Source: Candidatus Cloacimonetes bacterium HGW-Cloacimonetes-1 (GTDB lineage: Bacteria; Cloacimonadota; Cloacimonadia; Cloacimonadales; Cloacimonadaceae). From it: 43,219 nucleotides of DNA. The DNA is taken from positions 1-43,219 of the forward strand of contig PHBQ01000016.1 of the NCBI GenBank assembly GCA_002841975.1. The letters run 5' to 3'. Below the pieces are notes generated by a model. That model saw nothing but the letters and a program-made list of their open reading frames with translations, made no database searches and was not told the DNA's origin. A program made the translations under genes and the position numbers. This document shows positions 8,717-39,672 of the stretch, one piece after another; position 1 is the first letter of the stretch; each line of letters opens with the position of its first letter.

Positions 8717-8769
8717 AGAAACTCACAAAACACAGAGAGATTAGTAAATGTCAAGAGAATTATGCTCCC

Positions 8770-8850
8770 TTACTCAAATCTCAGGTGATTCCCTCGTACT
8801 TCCCTCGTGAAGCCCTTGTGAGCACAAGGGAATCGCAAGAGAAGCACCTC
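8770..8850 (+). repeat. Intergenic CCCTCGTG palindromic repeat, copy A
   Basis: One of four copies of the same element; the others are at 19236, 28747 and 37532. It reads TTACTCAAATCTCAGGTG, then ATTCCCTCGT and ACTTCCCTCGTGAAG, then a perfect hairpin CCCTTGTG-AG-CACAAGGG (8813-8830), then AATCGCAAGAGAAG. GATTCCCT at the left pairs with AGGGAATC at the right, so the whole unit can fold. It lies upstream of lysC and downstream of the DUF3795 gene. Confidence 0.85.
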
Positions 8851-8948
8851 TGTAAGACTTGGGGTTCAAATATACAAGAAAGATCCGTGAACGCGATTTC
8901 TTTCGGATTAAAAACGAGTAATACCTGAATCAGGCTTATTGAATAACG

Positions 8949-9389
8949 TTATACTGTATTTGGAAACAGCGGCTCCCAAGTGTTTCCGCACCCGGGGCAC
9001 TGAGTCTGATACCAATGTGTTCTGTTGCCACATTGCTTGCAGCTCCAGTATTCTTTTTGCTCTGCCAACCAAGCCTCAACCCCTATTTTCTTGATCCGTT
9101 TCAGGTTGTCCAAAACGACGATATGATGTGCCCATTCATCGGTTTGAAAGTTAGAGATCATTTTGCAGGGGAACTCGGGACAAAAGGCACAGCTCTCGGT
9201 GCCATGTGCTAGGTTGCAGACTACAAATTCGCAGTTCTCCAAATTGGGCGAACAGCATCCCGGGCAGGCTGTTTCTTCGGGGTCGATATCATGGGTGGGC
9301 AGGTTTGTTTCACCCTGGCTTTGGTCATGAAGGATCATGCTGCTGCACGCGCCGCAATATAATCCGCAGTAAGTCATGTATTTTTGCAT
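8949..9389 (-). CDS. DUF3795 family cysteine-rich protein
   Basis: 146 residues. The beginning, MQKYMTYCGLYCGACSS, and the following cysteine pairs (CPGCC, CEFVVC, CAFCPEFPC) are typical of DUF3795 proteins, whose function is unknown. The C-terminus carries an extra rubredoxin/zinc-ribbon-like knuckle, CKQCGNRTHWYQTQCPGCG, so at least two metal sites are likely. AGAGGA lies just upstream of the ATG and supports this start. The DUF899-type gene lies 85 bases upstream on the same strand and may be co-transcribed. About 230 bases of non-coding DNA, including repeat copy A, separate it from lysC downstream. A short hairpin at about 8919-8940 follows the gene but lacks an adjacent T-run. Confidence 0.75.
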   Translation of the reverse strand: MQKYMTYCGLYCGACSSMILHDQSQGETNLPTHDIDPEETACPGCCSPNLENCEFVVCNLAHGTESCAFCPEFPCKMISNFQTDEWAHHIVVLDNLKRIKKIGVEAWLAEQKEYWSCKQCGNRTHWYQTQCPGCGNTWEPLFPNTV

Positions 9390-18549: not shown

Positions 18550-19134
18550 CTACGCTCTGAATTTCCACTTCTCTTTGAGGGCTTTCATTACCAGTTTGGC
18601 ACCATCTTTTCGATTTAAGGGATTCAGCTCCTTATACAAGCGAGTAGATTGATCAAGTTGCTCTGTTTCGACTATTTTACCATCTGCAGTTACGAGAGTA
18701 TAGTTTGCACGGAAGATCATCTTTTCAGTTGAATTACTGTGTAGCTCCACCAAAAGTGCATAGCGTGTACTGATGGCATCTGTTCGAACTTGGCTCGCAA
18801 AGCCTTTGGCACTGTTTCTGGCTTTGGATGCATCACTTTGCCAAAACATCGGGGAGTAGATATGCTTACGGTCACCAACTACAGGATTTGCCAAAAACTC
18901 TTCTTCCAAATAAGCGGCAATGAGATTGGAGAGATATTTATCCTGAATGGTCATACTTCCCTTGATGATGTTCACGGGGTAAACAGTGAGAGTAAAAGAA
19001 TCGTGATTTTTGTAAAAGACTTCATTTGCTGCCTTGTCCACACAGGATCCACAACCGGAAACAAATAGTATTAACCCAGATAAAACTATAAACCATATAC
19101 AGGATTTCAATGAGAAATGTTCTATTTCTATCAT
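18550..19134 (-). CDS. Hypothetical lipoprotein
   Basis: About 194 residues. GGAGG five bases before the ATG at 19134 decides the start; a second ATG at 19137 is too close to it. The hydrophobic segment IWFIVLSGLILFVSGC ends in a lipobox, so the mature protein begins at Cys and is membrane-anchored. The rest includes FTLTVYPVNIIKGSMTIQD, LIAAYLEEEFLANP and RYALLVELHSNSTEKMIFR, mixed alpha/beta. This is weakly reminiscent of small envelope-assembly or DUF4136-like lipoproteins, but no family is recognised. It lies upstream of prfB on the same strand with about 200 bases between, and repeat copy B lies upstream of it. Confidence 0.7.
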   Translation of the reverse strand: MIEIEHFSLKSCIWFIVLSGLILFVSGCGSCVDKAANEVFYKNHDSFTLTVYPVNIIKGSMTIQDKYLSNLIAAYLEEEFLANPVVGDRKHIYSPMFWQSDASKARNSAKGFASQVRTDAISTRYALLVELHSNSTEKMIFRANYTLVTADGKIVETEQLDQSTRLYKELNPLNRKDGAKLVMKALKEKWKFRA

Positions 19135-19235
19135 CATGACCTCCAAATGTACCTTTTGAAGAATAAGGAAATTGTCAAGCTTTCTTTACCTGACCGGATA
19201 AGGGCTCTGTTTATCGGTCACCTTATAGTGACGAC

Positions 19236-19313
19236 GCACTTGCCTTGCGATTCACTGGTGTTCACTAGGGCTTCACGAGGGAAGCACGAGGGAATCACCT
19301 CGGGTTCAAGTAA
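19236..19313 (-). repeat. Intergenic CCCTCGTG palindromic repeat, copy B
   Basis: On the minus strand: TTACTTGAACCCGAGGTG, then ATTCCCTCGTG, CTTCCCTCGTG, AAGCCCTAGTGAACAC, and CAGTGAATCGCAAGGCAAGT. It is the cleanest copy; the ends form a short inverted repeat (ACTTG ... CAAGT), and GATTC at the left pairs with GAATC at the right. Intergenic between the lipoprotein start and the mnmA end. Confidence 0.85.
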
Positions 19314-19380
19314 GAAAGCATCAGGAAAGACGGTTATTCGAAACATTGATGGATCTTTGCTTATATTGATATTCTGAGGT

Positions 19381-20460
19381 TTAGCGGATTATCCCGCCTC
19401 CCAGAACTATATCGCCATTGTAAATTACTACGACCTGCCCCGGAGTAATAGAAAGCTGAGGCTCATCGAAATGAACGCTCACGGCTGATTGATCGATTAT
19501 CCGGACAGTGCAGGGAGATGGATCGCTGCCCAAACGAATCTTGGCAGATGCGGTAAAATCGGCAACAGGTGTCTCTATAGAAATCCAATTCATACTATGC
19601 GCTTCAAGATCATGTGTGTAGAGGTATTGCTTGGGACCCACGACAATGGTGTTGGTCTTGGCATTGATTTCCAAGACATAATATGGCTCTGTCTGACCGG
19701 GGATGCCCAGATTTTTCCGCTGACCAATGGTATAATGGATCAAGCCTTGATGGGTGCCGATCTCAGTTCCGTCGATGTTGATGATCTTTCCGGCGGCAAA
19801 TGTTCCCTTTTCAAAAAGGATTGAATAGTCGTCGGTTTCCAGAAAGTCTTGGCTTTCCTGCTTTGTTGCCAGCTCTTCGAATCCGTATTGGATTGCCAAA
19901 GCCTTTGTCTGTTCTTTGAGAAACTCACCCATAGGAAAAGAGGCTTGAGCAAGCTGGGCTTGAGATAGAAAAGTGAGGAAATAGGATTGATCCTTAAAAT
20001 GGTCGATAGCGCGCAGTAACTGCCAACGACGAGAGCTTTCGTCATAGCGAACCCGGACATAGTGTCCGGTAGCAAATTTCTCAAATTGCAAACCCATTTC
20101 CCTGGCTCGCTGTGGTAAAAACCCAAACTTGAGTCGTTGATTGCACATCACGCACGGATTGGGTGTCTTTCCTGAAGTATATGTGGAGCAAAAATAGTCT
20201 AGGACATTAGTTCTAAACTCGTCTTTCAGAGAGATTACGTGATGCTCAATACTCAGTTTCTCACAGGCACTTACAGCCGCTGCAATATCCTCGCTTTCCC
20301 CGGGGCCAAAACAACCACTTTTGCTCGACTCTGTGAGCGGTATGGTGTCGTCCCAGATCGCCATGGTTAGACCGATGACGTTGTAGCCCTGTTCTTTGAG
20401 GATCAGAGCAGCCATCGTGGAATCTACTCCACCGCTCATTCCAATAGCTATATTATTCAT
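19381..20460 (-). CDS. mnmA: tRNA-specific 2-thiouridylase (variant without the second catalytic cysteine)
   Basis: 359 residues. MnmA activates U34 of Lys, Glu and Gln tRNAs with ATP and replaces O2 by sulfur. The PP-loop is MNNIAIGMSGGVDSTMAALI. The first catalytic region is TPNPCVMCNQRLKFG, with C103 and C106 forming CxxC. ATGHYVR, KDQSYFL and HYTIGQRKNLGIPG are conserved. Where most MnmA proteins read like ESQEVCFIPDGDY, this one reads ESQDFLETDDY (residues 202-212): two residues are missing, including the second catalytic cysteine (Cys199 of E. coli). An added SGCFGPGESED near residue 48 goes with it. I believe this form is a known subfamily of anaerobes, possibly iron-sulfur dependent; that part is recollection and inference. 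Thirteen bases follow the HgdB-like gene. Confidence 0.93.
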   Translation of the reverse strand: MNNIAIGMSGGVDSTMAALILKEQGYNVIGLTMAIWDDTIPLTESSKSGCFGPGESEDIAAAVSACEKLSIEHHVISLKDEFRTNVLDYFCSTYTSGKTPNPCVMCNQRLKFGFLPQRAREMGLQFEKFATGHYVRVRYDESSRRWQLLRAIDHFKDQSYFLTFLSQAQLAQASFPMGEFLKEQTKALAIQYGFEELATKQESQDFLETDDYSILFEKGTFAAGKIINIDGTEIGTHQGLIHYTIGQRKNLGIPGQTEPYYVLEINAKTNTIVVGPKQYLYTHDLEAHSMNWISIETPVADFTASAKIRLGSDPSPCTVRIIDQSAVSVHFDEPQLSITPGQVVVIYNGDIVLGGGIIR

Positions 20461-23545: not shown

Positions 23546-23623
23546 CGGGATGTAGCGCAGCCCGGGTAGCGTACTTGAATGGGGTTCAAGTGGTCGCTGG
23601 TTCAAATCCAGTCATCCCGACCA
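23546..23623 (+). tRNA. tRNA-Pro (anticodon GGG)
   Basis: A complete cloverleaf was found by hand. The acceptor stem is CGGGATG/CATCCCG. The D stem is GCGC/GCGT with one G:U pair. The anticodon stem CTTGA/TCAAG encloses the loop ATGGGGT, with anticodon GGG at 23581-23583. The T stem is GCTGG/CCAGT around TTCAAAT. A discriminator A is followed by an encoded CCA at 23621-23623. The GGG anticodon reads CCC and CCU proline codons. A hairpin terminator follows. Confidence 0.97.
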
Positions 23624-27795: not shown

Positions 27796-27988
27796 TTTGT
27801 AAACCTCGAATCTAATATTTTGAGAAATTCATTATATTTATAAGTCAATATACTGTCAATGACAATCGGGTATCCCGGATTATGATGCAGTGTGTGAGCG
27901 AATTGACTCAAAGCCGGAGCAAAATAAACTTGACACCTGTGACCATCTTAATCCATGCTCCACTCTACTAATGTAATAGGATGTGAAC

Positions 27989-28705
27989 ATGACAACGAAA
28001 TCTTGGAGAAAACTGCTCAGCTTTGATGAAATAGTGTCCGGCTCGATAGGTGTGCTCAGAATCACCATATTGTTGATTGTAACTATCGGCATGCTGTCAT
28101 GTTCAAAATCCAATAGTCCCACCATGCCGGATTTTAGTATTGATGGCTGGGAAACCTCTTTTGATGCGATTATGGAAGTAGATGTATCCGGGCGTCAGGC
28201 CAGCGTGAAACTGATCACTGCCACCAATCCCGGCACCAGAAGCCTCATCATTAATGATGAAGTAAGTGCATTGGGGACTTCTGCATACAGTGATGAGGAC
28301 TCGGCATGGGTGTCTTATTTTCAGTTGGGTTATATCACTTCAGGTTCCACAGTGTCTTTTGTACTGGTCTATGATGGTAAAACAATCAGTGGAGTTTTGT
28401 CGATTCCCAGCAGTGTCGAAGGCGTCTTCCCATTTTTTGGAGATAGTAACTACACCTTTGAATGGACAACCCTGTACTCGCCACAGCTCTACCTGATAGA
28501 CCTTGATTACTATTCTCACAACGAGCTTCATACTATTCGGGAGCAGATCGATGGTAGCGCTTTGCAGCACTCAATCAAATCCCAGCTGTGGGGTGGGGGA
28601 TTGGTGTATCCGGACCGCTTGGTACTGCAAGCGATCAATTACAAACAAATTAGCTCCGGCTTTATAGCCATAGCAAAAGTAACCGCAACTCACAACTTTC
28701 GTTAA
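27989..28705 (+). CDS. Hypothetical lipoprotein
   Basis: 239 residues from the ATG at 27989, with AGGA upstream; a GTG two codons earlier is less likely. A basic N-terminus is followed by LRITILLIVTIGMLSCSKSN, a lipobox signal. The mature part is beta-rich (WETSFDAIMEVDVSGRQA, SWVSYFQLGY-like strands) and suggests an Ig-like or beta-sandwich fold. No family is recognised. It stands alone between a divergent oxidoreductase and a convergent histidine kinase, with repeat copy C 42 bases after its stop. Confidence 0.6.
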   Translation: MTTKSWRKLLSFDEIVSGSIGVLRITILLIVTIGMLSCSKSNSPTMPDFSIDGWETSFDAIMEVDVSGRQASVKLITATNPGTRSLIINDEVSALGTSAYSDEDSAWVSYFQLGYITSGSTVSFVLVYDGKTISGVLSIPSSVEGVFPFFGDSNYTFEWTTLYSPQLYLIDLDYYSHNELHTIREQIDGSALQHSIKSQLWGGGLVYPDRLVLQAINYKQISSGFIAIAKVTATHNFR

Positions 28706-29024
28706 ATTGAGGCTCATTACAGCCCTGACAAGCGGCTTGATTCCCCTTACTTGAATCCGAGGTGATCCCCTCGTGGTTCCCTCGTGGGAGCCTGCGAAGC
28801 GCAAGGCAAGTATCTCGAAATCACCAGAGTGAGATTAAAGGAATAACAGGCGATATGTCCTTGTGGAGCAGCACGCAGACGCTGCTAAAAGATGGTTCGT
28901 GATAGAAGTTGTGGTCCAGTCCGACATGAAGAACCATACCTGAAGCAATCACATTCGGCATGAACTCCCTGTGGCTTATCCTACTTTCATCAGCTTTAAG
29001 ATATCAGTTAACTGTTCCAATCAG
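28706..29024. other. 319-base convergent intergenic region with repeat copy C and a structured stretch
   Basis: It contains repeat copy C (28747-28816), then two hairpins: AGCAGC/GCTGCT (28867-28886) and ATGGTTC/GAACCAT (28892-28937). A 46-codon minus-strand frame (28961-28821) beginning MPNVIASGMVLHV overlaps the hairpins. It has no family match and its AGGGAG lies only three bases before the ATG, so it is not called as a gene. Confidence 0.5.
28747..28816 (+). repeat. Intergenic CCCTCGTG palindromic repeat, copy C
   Basis: TTACTTGAATCCGAGGTG, then ATCCCCTCGTG, GTTCCCTCGTG, GGAGCCTGCGAAGC and GCAAGGCAAGTATCTCG. Same order of parts as copy B with a shorter middle. It sits between two convergent genes. 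Confidence 0.85.
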
Positions 29025-30968
29025 CTAAACCTTGGGGAGAGTGATGGTAAAGGTCGAGCCCTGTTTGAGGACAGATTTGATCGACAGTTTACCATGAATC
29101 TGTTTAATGTATGTGAGACATAGTCCGATGCCAAAGCCGGTTCCACTTTCGGTATTGGTGCCGTGCATGGATTGGGCAGTTCCGGAAAGCAACTGTTTGA
29201 TTGTAAGAGGAGCCAACCCGATCCCCGTATCAATGACCTCGATCATGATTTTGGTTTTAGTGGCGCGAGTTTTGACAATTATTGCACCGTGCTCGGGAGT
29301 AAATTTGATCGCATTGTGAACCAGATTTCTCACAATGGTATGGAGGCAGTTTTTGTTTGTCATGGCGAATACTTCGGGATTACCTTGGTATGAAAGATCT
29401 AAAAACTTGAGCTGGGCAGAACTGCGGTACATAGACAGGCAATCCGAAATTATTGAAACGATATTCAGGACAGTGAGGTTAGTTTCCAGAGCCTGTTGTT
29501 TGACGTTGCTCCAAGACAGCAAGTCTCCTAGGAGATTACCGGTGTTACTGAGCGAAAGTGCTATATCGATGAGCAAGCTTTCCGATTCCTCTGTACTCAT
29601 GACGTTAGTTTTGATGAGATTGAGTGCCTGGACCGCAGTTAGCACGGGACCACGGATATCATGACCAATGATGGAGAAGAGTTTGCGCATCAGAGCATTT
29701 GTGCTTTCCAGGTCCTTATTTGCGATATAGAGCAATCTCGATTGATCGGCGATCACACGGTTCATCTCGGTAAGCTCAATATTCTTTTGGCGATAGATTT
29801 CGGCTTGTTCTTCAGTCTTTTTGCGATAGAAATCTGCTTCGGAACGAGCTATCATGATTTTGGGGTTGTCTGCAAAGATCTTTTTAAAAGTTTCAGAGTA
29901 TATGTGAAGATACTTGAATGCTAGCTCAAACTGCTGCTGATCTGCATACACCGTACTCAAGAATTTTGCTGATTCTTGAATGATATGTAGGGAATTGATC
30001 TCTTGGGAAAGATCGTAGCTTTTGATTCCGTATTCAATTGCCAGTTTGCTGTCGGTTGTGTTATAATGTAGCCATGCAAATTTAATATACAAGCCAGAAA
30101 GTGCTATCTTATCCTCGCCAATAATGAAGATTTCTTGAGCTTTTTGATAAAATTCCAATGCCAGGTCATATTGCTTTTGACTGTTGTAAATACTGCCAAT
30201 ATTGGCATAGGTATTTGCGATTTCAAGCTCGTTTGAGAACTTCTGTTTCAGCTCCAGAGAACGGTTTGCAAAGTCAATTGCCCTTTCATAATCACCCATG
30301 TCACAAAGCACCATGCTCAAATTGCTGTAGGCAAATGACAAATACCTTTGATTATCGGATTTGATAAAGCTCTCAACAGCTTTATTGTAAAGCTCCAGGG
30401 AAGTATCGAATTGTTTTAGCTTCATGTAAGAGCTTGCCAAATTGAAATAATCAGTAGCCATCTCTGTCTCACGATCTAATTCATCATCGATTTTGAGGCA
30501 TTGATATTGGCAGTCCAGCGCTTCTTGATGTTTGTCAGTCATGGAAAAGGCAATCCCCAGGTTGTTATATATATCGGCACGTGTTTTGAGATCATCAATC
30601 TCATTCAGTAGGTTTTGCCAGCCTTCAATGGCCTTGAGGTAGTTTGAATGGATAGCGAAGAGGATGCAAATGCCATTTACGGCTTTGACTTTATAGGTAG
30701 GGTCTGTGACAATGGGACAAAGCGTCAGGGCAGTTTGATAAGCCTTCTCTGCTTGCTCAAAGGCTCCTATCTTGGTACTGGCATCTCCAATCCCTAGATG
30801 TAGCTTGAGTTTTTCAGGAGCATCAATCAAGTCCTCATGCTGAGCTAAAACTGATTGAGCGTTTGTGATATATGTCTCGATTTGGGATCGATCCATTTTG
30901 TTAACATCTGAACTTTGTTCGATGACGGCTTGAACTCGGCGTTTTCCCTGTGCTATGCTATCTTTCAT
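29025..30968 (-). CDS. Cytoplasmic TPR-domain sensor histidine kinase
   Basis: 647 residues, no signal peptide or membrane segment. Residues about 40-370 hold roughly eight TPR repeats (DIYNNLGIAFSMTDKHQEAL, YSNLSMVLCDMGDYERAIDF, NTYANIGSIYNSQKQYDLAL). A coiled coil follows (about 385-430). The H-box is LFSIIGHDIRGPVLTAV near residue 434. The ATPase domain has the N-box VRNLVHNAIKFTPEHG, G1 VIDTGIGL and G2 GTGFGIGLCLTYIKQIHG. The phosphoryl acceptor and ATPase motifs are intact. No response regulator is adjacent, so it is an orphan kinase sensing through its TPR part, perhaps by protein contact. AGGGA precedes the ATG. Confidence 0.9.
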   Translation of the reverse strand: MKDSIAQGKRRVQAVIEQSSDVNKMDRSQIETYITNAQSVLAQHEDLIDAPEKLKLHLGIGDASTKIGAFEQAEKAYQTALTLCPIVTDPTYKVKAVNGICILFAIHSNYLKAIEGWQNLLNEIDDLKTRADIYNNLGIAFSMTDKHQEALDCQYQCLKIDDELDRETEMATDYFNLASSYMKLKQFDTSLELYNKAVESFIKSDNQRYLSFAYSNLSMVLCDMGDYERAIDFANRSLELKQKFSNELEIANTYANIGSIYNSQKQYDLALEFYQKAQEIFIIGEDKIALSGLYIKFAWLHYNTTDSKLAIEYGIKSYDLSQEINSLHIIQESAKFLSTVYADQQQFELAFKYLHIYSETFKKIFADNPKIMIARSEADFYRKKTEEQAEIYRQKNIELTEMNRVIADQSRLLYIANKDLESTNALMRKLFSIIGHDIRGPVLTAVQALNLIKTNVMSTEESESLLIDIALSLSNTGNLLGDLLSWSNVKQQALETNLTVLNIVSIISDCLSMYRSSAQLKFLDLSYQGNPEVFAMTNKNCLHTIVRNLVHNAIKFTPEHGAIIVKTRATKTKIMIEVIDTGIGLAPLTIKQLLSGTAQSMHGTNTESGTGFGIGLCLTYIKQIHGKLSIKSVLKQGSTFTITLPKV

Positions 30969-34470: not shown

Positions 34471-37392
34471 CTAATCTTGTATCTCTCGTCGTGCATATAC
34501 TCCCATTAAGCCGTTAAATGAACTCAGTAAAGGTATATCTATCAGGAAATAGTCTGCGAGCTTCTCGAACTTCTTGTCATAGGCAATTCCATATTTTAGT
34601 ACAGTTTCGATCCCCAAAATCGAAGTCTCTACTTTCACTTCAAATCCACTTGCCTGATAAGTGTATTGGTCATTTGCTTCAGCCAAGACATCTTTTAGGA
34701 CAGTATAATCATGCCACAAGGAAACTCCGGCATAACCTGTGGATACGATATTGTCATCCCAACCCAGTCCAAACTTCAGGTCATCAGTCAGTTTGACATT
34801 GATTTGGTTCTGCACATTCAGAATCTTTTTACACAGATGGTCATCCTCATACCCACGTAGATAATAGCGCCGGAACGCAGGTTTATTGTTGGCTTGGAGG
34901 ATGGCATAATGATCTGTTCCCGGGAGCAGCTGATCGATTTGATCTCCATTCACAAACTCATAGGTGCTACGATTTTCAAAGGCTATCGTACGTAATTGCT
35001 CACTCTTCACAGAATGCAAGAGTGGTGCAAAGACCAATCCTGCTTTGAATGTATGCTGATCAAAATCCATGTTCATGGCGAGCTTATCTGTGGCAGCTTG
35101 CAAAGAATAATCCAGATTGAAAGCACACACGGGATGTAGCACAGAGTTTTCCCAGGGAAGGTTGTAGCCGTATCCGAGGCTCGACACAAAGGAGGAAAAG
35201 TTCTTGCTTTTAAAAATGGGATTGGCGTTCACATTGTGGAATTCGTCATATTTCCAGCCTATGTTAAACTTTGCAAAGGTGAAAGGTCGGTTGATGGTGA
35301 TTGGGAAATCTGCAGAAACAGCCACTTCATCGATGTCTTGATAGTAAAGCTTGTCTTCTTTCAAGCCGGAAAGCCACTGATAGCGCGCATAGATCACCGA
35401 GATGGCAGGGTCATAGCATTGATTCAAATACATAAATGTCCACCAAGCCTTGTCCCGAGAGCTGTAGGGGAGATAAGCAGCTCCACCCAGTACATGCTTG
35501 CCCAGAGCTTCGGAAACCACAAACCCACCAATTACAGAGTTGTAAGTCGGAATAGCCAGTCCTCCTCTCCATTTGATGGCACGCAAAGAGTTGTACCGAA
35601 CAGGTTGAGATACCAGTACACTATCAAGATCATTGGAAATGGTATATTGAGGCTGTGCCATGATCCATTTATTGTAGTAGTTCTCAGAAAAAGTCATTGG
35701 CTCGGTAGCTTTGATCTCCGGTTTAAAATAGCCCAAGATCGCTCCGCCTCTTTTGAATTCTGCCATGCCTATCAATTTATCATCGATGTATCTCAAGGGA
35801 ATTGCATTGTAAGCATTGTCTGAAAACTTCAGATCCACTCCGCTATCCAGATTCCGTTGAAAGATATCAAGGCTAAAATCAACGGCATTTTCCACAGTAT
35901 AGATCAAGTCCAGATCAGTGCTCCACAAAATGGATTGTGGCATATTTTGCAGAGTAATAGTATGCATTATTGAGGCACTTGCCGTATCCAAGATGAAGAT
36001 ATGAAACTCTTTGGAGTGGTCAAACACTGTTACTGCCAGTTTACTGTTATCAGGAGAGAGCTTGATATTGCTGATTTGATCATCAGAATTCAGACTAAGC
36101 CACTTGAAGATTGAGAGGTCCGGTTTTATGTAGTAGATGTCGTTGGTGGATTTCCCCAAGGCCTGATAATAAATGCCACCCAAGCTGTCAATTGCTGCTA
36201 GGTTCCCCTCTCCAAAGGACTTCAGCTTTCGGGAGGCAACATCATACTTAAACACTCTGGGAGCCATTCTTCCTTTATTGTGGCGTGAATATGCACAGTA
36301 TGCTATCCATTTGCCATTATCACTCAAGGAGATGGATGTCATACTACCATACTTCACTATCTTGCGCGGGTTCTCCAACTTGAGCTTATTGCTACTCAAG
36401 CTATCAGTCAGTACTTTTGCCAAGACCAGGTCATAATATTTCTGCGCTTTGGTTTTACGCCCCAATAATAGTAGATTATCTTTTTTCCAATCCAGCTTTG
36501 ACAGATCGCAGTATTCGGTTTTTAGTTTGGTAAAATCGTTGATGTTGCCGATGGATGTTGTATCAGAATCCGCTGCTTTGGCATTATAGACTTCTCCATA
36601 ATAATATGTTGCGACGTAGCGTCTCCACTCTTCTGTAAAATCCTTGTAGGATTTGTGAAAAACATCTTCAAAGGCTTCCTTAAAATCGTACATCTTGGCT
36701 TTGGAACGATAGTTTAACAGTTTCGCCAAACTTTTCTCGCCATACACTTGGTCGATATAGCGAACCATCGAAAAGCCTGCTCCATAAAGCAATCCACCCT
36801 CATACATAGGAGATGTGGTATCTGCGGTTTGGGACAATATCGAAGCCTTCAAAAAGCGGTCACCCCGGTTATAACCCCAGGGCTCGCCACTAAAGAATTG
36901 AGCGTAACCCTCATTTAATGAATGTGGGAAGGACAAGCTCGATACGGGGAAGATCGGAGACATCCAATCTCGAATTGAAGTACTAACAAACCAATGCGAC
37001 ATCTCGTGGGCAACTACTTTGCGTATCCATTTGTCGTTACCGGTAAACATCGTAGTGAAATCATTCTGATTGACCCAGATAAATATGTAATAATTGAAAA
37101 CTGTCGCCCCATTGGGGATGTTATCCTGATCAGAGACATAAATAATGCACTTGGTCTTGGGCTCTATCTCATAGCTTTTGCAGAGCGCATCAAAGGTGTT
37201 CTGAGCTATCTGTGCCGTTTCAGTTGCTTCTGCCAGGAGAGGGTCATGGTAGATAATCTGGCAGTTTGTGGTCGTGAGGCTTTTCCATTTCAATTCGGGA
37301 TGATTACGGTCATTCATTCCACTATACGCTACTAATCCAAAGGCTTGCACAGCAACAATGACAATTACTAAGAACAATAAGCATTTTTTCAT
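34471..37392 (-). CDS. Zinc metallopeptidase - TolB-like propeller - outer-membrane barrel fusion
   Basis: 973 residues from the ATG at 37392, chosen for CAGGAGAGC just upstream. Signal peptide MKKCLLFLVIVIVAVQAFGL. Residues about 35-260 form a gluzincin-type peptidase: RKVVAHEMSHWFVST carries HExxH (near residue 128), and LNEGYAQFFSGEPWG about 30 residues later supplies the third zinc ligand Glu. Residues about 270-560 contain TolB/WD-type repeats (SISLSDNGKWIAYCAYS, IKLSPDNSKLAVTVFD). From about 600 to the end, strands of alternating hydrophobic and polar residues (FMYLNQCYDPAISVIYARYQ, FSSFVSSLGYGYNLPW) and FRRYYLRGYEDD suggest a BamA-like or similar outer-membrane barrel. The C-terminus, ARREIQD, lacks the usual final aromatic. 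A surface or periplasmic protease anchored in the outer membrane is inferred; its substrate is unknown. Confidence 0.82.
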   Translation of the reverse strand: MKKCLLFLVIVIVAVQAFGLVAYSGMNDRNHPELKWKSLTTTNCQIIYHDPLLAEATETAQIAQNTFDALCKSYEIEPKTKCIIYVSDQDNIPNGATVFNYYIFIWVNQNDFTTMFTGNDKWIRKVVAHEMSHWFVSTSIRDWMSPIFPVSSLSFPHSLNEGYAQFFSGEPWGYNRGDRFLKASILSQTADTTSPMYEGGLLYGAGFSMVRYIDQVYGEKSLAKLLNYRSKAKMYDFKEAFEDVFHKSYKDFTEEWRRYVATYYYGEVYNAKAADSDTTSIGNINDFTKLKTEYCDLSKLDWKKDNLLLLGRKTKAQKYYDLVLAKVLTDSLSSNKLKLENPRKIVKYGSMTSISLSDNGKWIAYCAYSRHNKGRMAPRVFKYDVASRKLKSFGEGNLAAIDSLGGIYYQALGKSTNDIYYIKPDLSIFKWLSLNSDDQISNIKLSPDNSKLAVTVFDHSKEFHIFILDTASASIMHTITLQNMPQSILWSTDLDLIYTVENAVDFSLDIFQRNLDSGVDLKFSDNAYNAIPLRYIDDKLIGMAEFKRGGAILGYFKPEIKATEPMTFSENYYNKWIMAQPQYTISNDLDSVLVSQPVRYNSLRAIKWRGGLAIPTYNSVIGGFVVSEALGKHVLGGAAYLPYSSRDKAWWTFMYLNQCYDPAISVIYARYQWLSGLKEDKLYYQDIDEVAVSADFPITINRPFTFAKFNIGWKYDEFHNVNANPIFKSKNFSSFVSSLGYGYNLPWENSVLHPVCAFNLDYSLQAATDKLAMNMDFDQHTFKAGLVFAPLLHSVKSEQLRTIAFENRSTYEFVNGDQIDQLLPGTDHYAILQANNKPAFRRYYLRGYEDDHLCKKILNVQNQINVKLTDDLKFGLGWDDNIVSTGYAGVSLWHDYTVLKDVLAEANDQYTYQASGFEVKVETSILGIETVLKYGIAYDKKFEKLADYFLIDIPLLSSFNGLMGVYARREIQD

Positions 37393-37531
37393 TCGCTCTC
37401 CTGAGGGCAATTCTCAAACTTCACTGTTAGGCGAGTTCTGATGCCGAGATGTGATTATATTTGTGACACTTTCCAGAGGATATGAGTTAACAGTCAAGAG
37501 GAATCGCTTTCCGGAAATTTGCAGTAGGTCC

Positions 37532-37599
37532 CTTGCTCAAATCCGAGGTGCTTCCCTCGTGACTCCCTCGTCAGACTTGCGAATCACGAGGGATGTGCC
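37532..37599 (+). repeat. Intergenic CCCTCGTG palindromic repeat, copy D
   Basis: TTGCTCAAATCCGAGGTG, then CTTCCCTCGTG, ACTCCCTCGT, CAGACTTGCGAA and TCACGAGGGATGTGCC. In this copy CCCTCGTGA pairs directly with TCACGAGGG to give a 9-bp hairpin. It sits between divergent genes. Confidence 0.83.
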
Positions 37600-37763
37600 A
37601 CTGAATTAGGAGGTATATCTATAACCTAAATATAAATATTCCCATTTCTCCCCATACTGTTCCCCATACCAAAAAATAACACGACTTCCCGGTGAAGGCC
37701 GGGATTTAGTTCTTTATAAAAGATTACTTTAGATGTACTTAAGCATGAAAATAGTGACTCGGG

Positions 37764-37833: not shown

Positions 37834-38115
37834 AGAATGAAACCCAGACACCCAGAACGTGAGAGGGGAGCTACGCAACTGCGAGTTTCCGAGATGGGCT
37901 TGGGGATAACTGGCATCTTCCGGAGCGGAGCCCCAAAAATGCCTTGACAAAACAGATATGATCAAATTTCTTTTAAAATGGGGGTTTTGTAAACATGTTG
38001 TTGATCAAAGCCTTGGATAGATTTTAATCTACCTATCTTACAGTCGCGTTTAGGGTGACATGCTAATGTAAGGTGAGTGTTCATTTTAAGTATTTGTAAC
38101 GCTGGAGAGAATAAT

Positions 38116-39672
38116 ATGTTTTGCAACAAAACGACGCTGGGTTTGATATCGGTATTATTGATTGGGTTTATACTCACTTCCTGTGTTTCCTACAAACCAC
38201 GCACAGTCGAGGTCAATCGGCGTAGTAATTATTACAGACGTGATGCGCATCTGATCTGGCCGGGAAGTACGGAAAGCGACCTCTATATGAAAGATATGTC
38301 ATTCGCCGGCAACACCCTCAGCGGGACTGTCTATCAGAAACCAACACCGAAAGCTCAGAGGAACAATGGCTTCATGGCAAATCTGTATCTGGATAGTTCA
38401 GTTGTTTATCCCGATTCACTGCCCTGCAAACTTGCCATTACAACAGACAAAATACTTAAATTGGAAGTCTATGACAGCAGCGTAGGGAAGACGATTGTTT
38501 ACACTTTTCTTTCTGCCACAGCAGTTGCCGCTGTCATCTTGGTGATATTCCTGGCAACCAAAGAATCATGTCCCTTTATCTATAGCTTTAATGGTAGTAC
38601 TTACGATTTTATCGGGGAGATTTATAGTGGAGCTATATTACCGGGATTGGAAAGGGATGATTATCTACCGCTTCCAGGCCTGAAGCCAGTAAATGCCAGT
38701 TATCAACTGAAAATGACCAATGAAGTTCAAGAGATTCAGCATACAAATATGACCGAGTTACTTGTGGTTGATCATTCGGTGGGGACGAACGTCCTGATAG
38801 ACAAATACGGAAAATGTCACAGTTATCAAGCCCTGCAAGCTCCGATATTGGCACATGATGCAGATGCAAACAACATCTTGGATCTGATCAGCAGCCGGGA
38901 CAGCCTGCGCTATCTGGGAGGTTCGAATAATCATGCGAAAGCCAGTGATGAGATGTATTTGACATTTGATCGACCAAACGAAGAGGATGAAGCCCTCTTG
39001 GTGTTTCGTGGCAAGAACTCCTTTTGGCTAGACTATACGATGGGGCAGTTCTTCAATATGTTCGGCAGTAAATATGCCAAGTGGTTCAAAAATCAAAAGA
39101 CTTCTAAGAATCAAATACAACCAAACTGGGCATTGGAACAAGATATCCCACTATCGGTGTTTCTACGTGAGCATGGAGAGTGGAAATTCGTGGATTACTA
39201 TTATGTAGTAGGACCAATGGCGGACAAAGATATGGTGATGCCAATCGATATCAGTAATGTGGGCTCGGACCAGATCGAAATCAAGCTGGAATCCGGGTAC
39301 TTATTTTGGGAAACGGATTACGTGGCACTGGGCGTTGGTTCCCGTTCACCGGTTTATCAAGAAGCTGTTCCTATCTCAAAAGCCGTTAGTCATGATGCAA
39401 AGGACCTAAGCGGGATTTTGAAAGTCTCCGACAAAAAGTACTTTACTATGCCCCAGATCGGTAACTATGCCGTCTTGAACTTTGCAGTTCCGGCACTTCA
39501 TCAGGATTGTGAGAGAACGGTGTTCCTGCATAGCCGGGGTCACTACGAAGTGCTCCGTAAGCCTTCCGGCAATCCTGATGTGAAGTATCTGGAAAGCTTC
39601 CGGCAGCCCGGTAAGATGGGTCAATTCTCTCGGGAATTGTATCTGCAAAAACTAAAACTGGCAGGCAAATGA
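38116..39672 (+). CDS. Lipoprotein with internal membrane helix, paired with a radical SAM gene
   Basis: 518 residues from the ATG at 38116 (GGAGAGAATAAT upstream). The signal LGLISVLLIGFILTSC ends in a lipobox. Residues about 126-146 (TIVYTFLSATAVAAVILVIF) are a second hydrophobic helix, followed at once by a motif I have seen in other FCB lipoproteins but cannot name: SCPFIYSFNGSTYDFIGE, then SGAILPGLERDDYLPLPGL. The remaining 350 residues are beta-rich and include LLVFRGKNSFWLDYTMGQFF and YYYVVGPMADKDMVMPIDI. Four cysteines lie beyond the lipobox (near 102, 152, 235 and 475). Function unknown. The stop overlaps the start of the radical SAM gene as ATGA, which ties the two together. Confidence 0.75.
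   Translation: MFCNKTTLGLISVLLIGFILTSCVSYKPRTVEVNRRSNYYRRDAHLIWPGSTESDLYMKDMSFAGNTLSGTVYQKPTPKAQRNNGFMANLYLDSSVVYPDSLPCKLAITTDKILKLEVYDSSVGKTIVYTFLSATAVAAVILVIFLATKESCPFIYSFNGSTYDFIGEIYSGAILPGLERDDYLPLPGLKPVNASYQLKMTNEVQEIQHTNMTELLVVDHSVGTNVLIDKYGKCHSYQALQAPILAHDADANNILDLISSRDSLRYLGGSNNHAKASDEMYLTFDRPNEEDEALLVFRGKNSFWLDYTMGQFFNMFGSKYAKWFKNQKTSKNQIQPNWALEQDIPLSVFLREHGEWKFVDYYYVVGPMADKDMVMPIDISNVGSDQIEIKLESGYLFWETDYVALGVGSRSPVYQEAVPISKAVSHDAKDLSGILKVSDKKYFTMPQIGNYAVLNFAVPALHQDCERTVFLHSRGHYEVLRKPSGNPDVKYLESFRQPGKMGQFSRELYLQKLKLAGK

Follow-up and report, generated by a model that had tools for sequence, protein, structure and literature searches.

The four palindromic repeats lying between the genes of the window (the whole stretch of 43,219 nucleotides analysed here, contig C92 of the draft genome G000, 2.78 Mb in 128 contigs) belong to a family that is itself one member of a wider class of intergenic inverted arrays, about 70-110 bp long, phased at 11 bp and occurring about once per 7-12 kb. 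We tentatively regard these arrays as helically phased, two-fold-symmetric DNA sites that may organise the chromosome, perhaps wrapped by gyrase or by a nucleoid protein. The preliminary description of the window had pointed to a new-looking, strictly intergenic family of palindromes, and the existence of such a family, in high copy number and apparently undescribed, is confirmed here; a literature search on this class of repeats in Cloacimonadota returned nothing specific.

All four copies were recovered with a profile and each lies between genes, the best further profile match in the window reaching 1.7 bits. The profile placed them at 8769-8872, 19219-19314, 28746-28838 and 37532-37622. Copy A (8769..8874, + strand; 84.1 bits with model R1, 92.2 bits with the profile) stands in a tandem setting, flanked by an amino-acid-kinase gene and a DUF3795 gene according to Pfam, and its forward units CCCTCGTA, CCCTCGTG and CCCTTGTG are found at 8791, 8802 and 8813, 11 bp apart. 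Copy B (19212..19314, - strand; 77.4 and 81.8 bits, respectively) is also in tandem, between mnmA (19381-20460, -; Pfam) and an ORF at 18550-19146 (-). Copy C (28746..28842, +; 53.9 and 60.7 bits) is placed between convergent genes (27983-28705, +, and 29025-30968, -) and copy D (37532..37624, +; 53.2 and 56.1 bits) between divergent ones (34471-37410, -, and 38077-39672, +), the centre being shorter by one 11-nt unit in C and by about one such unit in D. The variety of settings and the lack of a transposase beside the copies of the window were thus correctly described. Of the parts said to be common to the four copies, the head is a consensus and not an identity, since copy A reads TTACTCAAATCTCAGGTG. 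The span originally given fell about 25 bp short on the 3' side, and the ACTTG/CAAGT inverted repeat taken for the ends is not the true end of the element, which is a degenerate GATTGRAGTAAG mirroring CTTACTYCAATC. The sole Rfam match in the window was a tRNA gene (23546-23620, +), and the MnmA protein encoded in the window had its closest match in a Candidatus Cloacimonadota MAG, with 51% identity.

Alignment of 127 copies among the matches listed describes the repeat as an imperfect palindrome of about 106 bp, with arms of four 11-nt units such as ATTCCCTCGTG. The consensus of the 5' arm is AATCCGAGGTG ATTCCCTCGTG ATTCCCTCGTG AAGCCCTTGTC, that of the 3' arm, once reverse-complemented, is approximately AATCTCAGGTG CTGGCGAGGTA CTTCCCTCGCG ATTCCCTGGTC, and outside the arms stand the degenerate ends CTTACTYC / GRAGTAAG. 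The top pairing registers are exactly 11 apart (i+j = 135, 124, 113, 102, and 146), GT steps are conserved at alignment columns 31, 42, 53, and 64, and AC steps end at columns 71, 82, 93, and 104. These GT steps, repeated each 11 nt, and the CCC ahead of them are the most constant bases of the 5' arm: GT at columns 53-54 and G64 are found in 100% of the copies and T65 in 99%, while columns 63 and 66 agree in only 41-54%. GC content showed a power peak at 11 bp in G000 (20.7 vs. a 99th percentile of 14.8) and a weaker one in G007, a genome of another genus. In the window CCCTCGTG was counted 7 times vs. 0.63 expected, and the exact doublet CCCTCGTGNNNCCCTCGTG occurred 87 times in the whole genome, vs. 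0 for the reversed control, and was absent (0 occurrences) from 40 relatives.

A sequence-only model built from 70 copies returned at least 150 matches, collapsing to at least 128 places in G000, and the complete scan of six contigs (404,789 bp) yielded 27 copies, equivalent to about 190 when scaled to the genome, far from a family limited to the four copies of the window. Scores in the scanned 405 kb were bimodal, with copies at 50-99 bits, the next match at 8 and none between 8 and 49. Though about 90% of the DNA is coding, 126 of the 127 copies among the matches listed are intergenic, at odds with an equal rate of occurrence inside genes (genes were called with our own script and checked on the window, where it missed the DUF3795 gene at 8949-9389). 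One copy overlaps a gene end by 97 bp, with an ORF running into the element, and two others by 4-7 bp. Tandem (50), divergent (46) and convergent (22) settings were all represented among these 127 copies, orientation in the tandem settings was free (28 vs. 22), and the distances to the genes were equal on both sides (medians 162 and 166.5 bp). On another contig of G000 (C80, L031:33-1145), the last residues and the stop codon of a 368-aa ORF lie inside an element, which looks as if it had replaced the original gene end, and a Y1 transposase gene is located about 250 bp away. At four loci (L017, L027, L029, L030) a GTAG-type REP-like hairpin (GGGCGAACGCAATTCGCCCCTAC) directly precedes a copy, its CTAC overlapping the first bases of the element.

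The copies are constrained in a column-specific way. Divergence ranged from 0 to 60% among columns, with a standard deviation of 0.188 vs. the 0.039 expected from a binomial with a common mutation rate, and the same pattern was found in 49 copies without the exact doublet, a few of which, including copy A, had been in the seed alignment. Relations among the 127 copies come close to a star: identity between pairs had a median of 0.642, vs. 0.641 once columns were shuffled; for nearest neighbours the median was 0.753 vs. 0.739 ± 0.006 in shuffled sets (maximum 0.85), and 14 copies had a neighbour above 0.8 vs. about 3 expected, so that a slight relatedness exists. Uneven constraint, star-like relations, bimodal scores and, as detailed below, the absence of covariation suggest that the copies are held in place by selection acting on DNA sequence and phase, not on base pairing. 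Neutral decay of a mobile family in G000 was discarded on the basis of unequal columns, star-like copies and the lack of part-decayed copies, because a decaying mobile family should leave intermediate scores.

The initial estimate of about one copy per 10 kb was borne out, and spacing proved to be the most informative feature. In the complete stretches of G000 the minimum distance between copies was 6.4 kb and the coefficient of variation (CV) 0.46 vs. about 1.0 expected, a regularity that was not reached once when copies were placed at random in the intergenic gaps 2000 times; repeats that could serve as a spacing control were few in G000. Genome-wide, all 56 spacings among the matches listed were of at least 6.4 kb. 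G007 carries a related family with unit ATCCCCTAGTG, 36 copies of which were found in 388 kb, with a minimum distance of 4.0 kb and a CV of 0.54, and again 0 of 2000 random placements were as regular. Regularity of spacing was also seen in G018 (P = 0.009 for the CV with the stricter cut) and in G004, a genome of the same genus (P = 0.03 to 0.05). In G009 the CV was not significant (P = 0.13, and 0.22-0.30 in a rerun), and a shortage of short gaps observed once (P = 0.0145) was not reproduced, a weak extra match lying 0.3 kb from another.

Even placement extends across families. In G000 there is a second family, GTGGCTATGATGTGGCTATG..., whose palindrome is almost perfect; its copies, about 25, are nearly identical and hence young, and they fall in the gaps of the first. 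In the complete stretches the distances from second- to first-family copies were 8.2-14.3 kb (P = 0.033), and genome-wide 18 of the 18 testable second-family copies were at least 8.2 kb from the first-family matches listed, a result reached by 0 of 20,000 random placements; adding the second family lowered the CV of G000 from 0.46 to 0.34. Seven elements of other families in G007 were likewise 6.0-11.7 kb from the first (P = 0.0001). Because the families were noticed after spacing had been examined, these exclusion tests depend in part on the observation that prompted them. Self-avoidance specific to each family is unlikely to be the only cause, since unrelated families also exclude each other.

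The comparison relied on other genera of the same family, because none of the genomes listed among 125 of the phylum belongs to the same genus. Weak matches in these genomes had different cores with the same rhythm, e.g., ATTCCCTCGAG, GTTCCCGGGTA, and GATTCCCATAT, and for this reason a detector was written that ignores sequence and requires arms with a constant repeat lag and an inverted counterpart close by. With the lag set to 11, it found 54 elements per Mb in G000, 98 in G007, 50 in G009, and 100 in G004, with lags 9, 10, 12, and 13 giving 0-13 per Mb in the same genomes; in a control of 496 kb from other phyla, lag 11 gave 2 per Mb. When the cut was lowered slightly, 25 of 26 elements were intergenic in G000, 43 of 43 in G007, 12 of 12 in G009, and 16 of 16 in G004. 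G018 had 67 lag-11 elements per Mb, and one weak but clearly phased match was the only one in G001, of a further genus. The class is accordingly represented in five genera, four through the detector (g1, g8, g10, and g5) and one through this single weak match (g2). Lag-11 elements were not detected in samples of G003 and G010, from two genera of the same family, nor in those of three other families of the order, so the lineage can do without them. Individual genomes contained several families whose cores are unrelated; the stretches of G009 and G018 (L348-L359, L395-L400) held at least three unrelated phased-palindrome families in each genome, such as ATTCCCATATC, CTTCCGTAACA, and CATTGCTTACC in G009.

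A core repeated each 11 bp in an inverted array around a short centre would bring the cores to the same side of the helix in a two-fold-symmetric arrangement, and the fact that the families share helical phase, symmetry and distance but not sequence fits sites that a symmetric multimer wraps or contacts from one side. The elements may then be double-stranded sites for a multimeric DNA-wrapping protein that would mark or anchor segments of the chromosome; the first candidate binder would be DNA gyrase or a nucleoid protein of the lineage. Supercoil domains of about 10 kb have been proposed; the elements, spread by some copying mechanism, would be kept at roughly this spacing, one per segment. 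It is conceivable that the genome holds a lattice defined by architecture and not by sequence, whose vacant slots new families can take, and in such a lattice the cell, or the insertion machinery, could be sensitive to helical phasing and to how far away the next site lies; we put forward both suggestions with reserve. Several observations speak against a wrapping site. The clearest signal is a minimum distance, gaps of 15-25 kb being tolerated, and exclusion at insertion therefore fits as well as a functional lattice; the period is 11.0 and not 10.5-10.75; the copies of G007 resemble each other and share downstream modules; regularity was not significant by CV in G009; and the elements went undetected in the samples of two genera of the same family and of three other families.

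The strongest rival, which we consider possible but rather doubtful, is a non-autonomous mobile superfamily in which each arm would consist of an array of sites bound by the transposase; a single machinery would read the architecture, and target immunity within about 5-8 kb would lead to a packing-like filling of the chromosome. Dispersed copies must stem from copying, the families are lineage-specific and patchy, the spacing has a hard lower bound, and the second family of G000 is young, nearly identical and seated in vacant slots. The G007 copies, more alike than those of G000 and accompanied by common downstream modules, are a sign of recent spread. With regard to insertion sites, synteny is interrupted where the elements lie, even among members of the genus of G007, which left no empty site in which to look for a target duplication. 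Positions common to G000 and G007 gave a weak signal (Fisher P 0.04 to 0.22) and included no convincing pair with both flanks in common. On the other hand, immunity leaves unexplained the constraint and the full length of old, independent copies, no autonomous partner, half-element or long element was seen among the at least 128 copies listed, and target immunity acting across families with unrelated cores would be unusual. Neither do Y1 transposases, the only kind searched for, follow the repeat. Three of the five Y1 genes of G000 have a copy or a relative within about 0.5 kb, a proximity that we judge compatible with chance given the intergenic density; across 50 genomes, a single Y1 gene was counted in G007, with its 36 copies in 388 kb, and up to 7 in genomes lacking a detectable CCCTNGTG-type copy, the element-poor G051 having 7. 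An association with RAYT, considered in the preliminary description, was discarded on these grounds.

The downstream modules of G007 deserve a separate mention. In L308-L327 repeats follow many elements on the 3' side in fixed order and orientation, namely stretches of AACAAGGAG and of CCACAGAGAAAGC, then a hairpin GGGAGCGACATC...GTCAGGATGACGC that is perhaps the Acido-Lenti-1 RNA (RF01687) reported by Rfam in L253, and lastly a unit whose inverted ends are TGTTTTGACTTA / TAAGTCAAAACA. Within the scanned stretches these repeats were mostly confined to sites 3' of elements. In G000, a Y1 transposase gene on contig C17 (L032:1000-3333) is accompanied by an unrelated repeat cluster (AAAGCCCTTTACGGGCGTCAGATCATAGCGAGGGTGTGCAGCGC...) in many copies, several of them about 99 bp apart.

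We regard it as unlikely that the elements act in RNA, as long hairpins stabilising, terminating or processing transcripts. Eleven base pairs are one turn of A-form RNA, the copies fold better than shuffled sequence (z -1.7 to -3.7), and the arms are near-perfect in other families. Covariation in the pairing registers of the palindrome was nonetheless absent in 70 and then in 127 copies, pairing in the main register being 61.8% vs. 61.9% expected from the columns alone (z = 0.45, 127 copies). The compensatory change formerly read from copies A and D thus does not hold across the family, and a folded RNA maintained by compensation was rejected; the four window copies have no common predicted fold, the element has no Rfam match, transcript ends and orientation are not preferred, and no terminator-like site was found around copy A. 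A site in DNA rather than in RNA is favoured because covariation is lacking and all gene settings and both orientations are occupied. An ordinary REP/MITE-like family, inert, slowly decaying, randomly placed and without a role, would account for intergenic, palindromic, high-copy repeats that are patchy between species, but it is very improbable in view of even spacing and cross-family exclusion, by which it is strongly disfavoured, of strong column-specific constraint with no decayed copies, and of the lack of a RAYT link and of a conserved GTAG tag.

Dispersed bacterial palindromes are usually viewed as randomly scattered parasites or as incidental binding sites, while here unrelated families share an 11-bp architecture, are evenly placed and avoid each other. 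If the elements are functional, they would mark segments of roughly supercoil-domain size, and what sets the domains would become directly testable; if they are mobile, exclusion across unrelated sequences would imply a transposition system that reads architecture and not sequence. A lattice defined by architecture, if real, would be a chromosome-organising system with diverse sequences and regular spacing, different from the REP, ERIC and MITE families.

ERIC sequences are imperfect intergenic palindromes of about 100-130 bp with no known transposase. Their copy numbers range from tens to hundreds (PMC10969869). Compared by description, the element is similarly a palindrome of about 100 bp, imperfect, intergenic, present in many copies and with no known transposase, but it differs in its four-unit 11-nt arms, even spacing, unrelated sister families and different phylum. 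REP/REPIN sequences with RAYT (PMC2817692, PMC3116915) and the GTAG/CGTC repeats (PMC3733652) measure 20-40 bp and carry a GTAG or CGTC tag, the RAYT link applying to GTAG. High copy number, intergenic palindromes and genome-specific sequence families are common to both; unlike a GT(A/G)G-headed REP palindrome of 20-40 bp, the element is about 106 bp long and has no Y1 link and no conserved tag, the first base at the CTAC (GTAG reversed) positions being T in 74 and C in 38 of the 127 copies. MITEs and repeats with terminal inverted repeats (TIR) occur beside tyrosine transposases (PMC3733652, PMC10969869). The element resembles them in being short and non-coding with inverted ends (degenerate CTTACTYCAATC / GATTGRAGTAAG together with the palindromic arms), and departs from them in its in-place constraint and its cross-family exclusion; no autonomous partner was seen among the at least 128 copies listed. 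A further parallel concerns gyrase, whose motif in E. coli is symmetric, about 130 bp long, with a 10.75-bp GC periodicity in two 47-bp arms, and which binds BIME-2 repeats (PMC6379681); other gyrases likewise show a periodicity of 10-11 bp (PMC12324340). The element is intergenic like BIME-2/REP clusters and, like the strong gyrase sites (Mu SGS, pSC101) and the E. coli motif, has two-fold symmetry and helically phased GC, besides a size of about 100-130 bp and a proposed role in chromosome topology (PMC6379681). In symmetry, size and GC periodicity the element resembles a gyrase-type wrapping site, a resemblance and not membership: the motif of gyrase is degenerate and can do without near-invariant bases, whereas the phase of the element comes from repeated units of exactly 11 bp with near-invariant bases, evenly spaced and with several families on one lattice.
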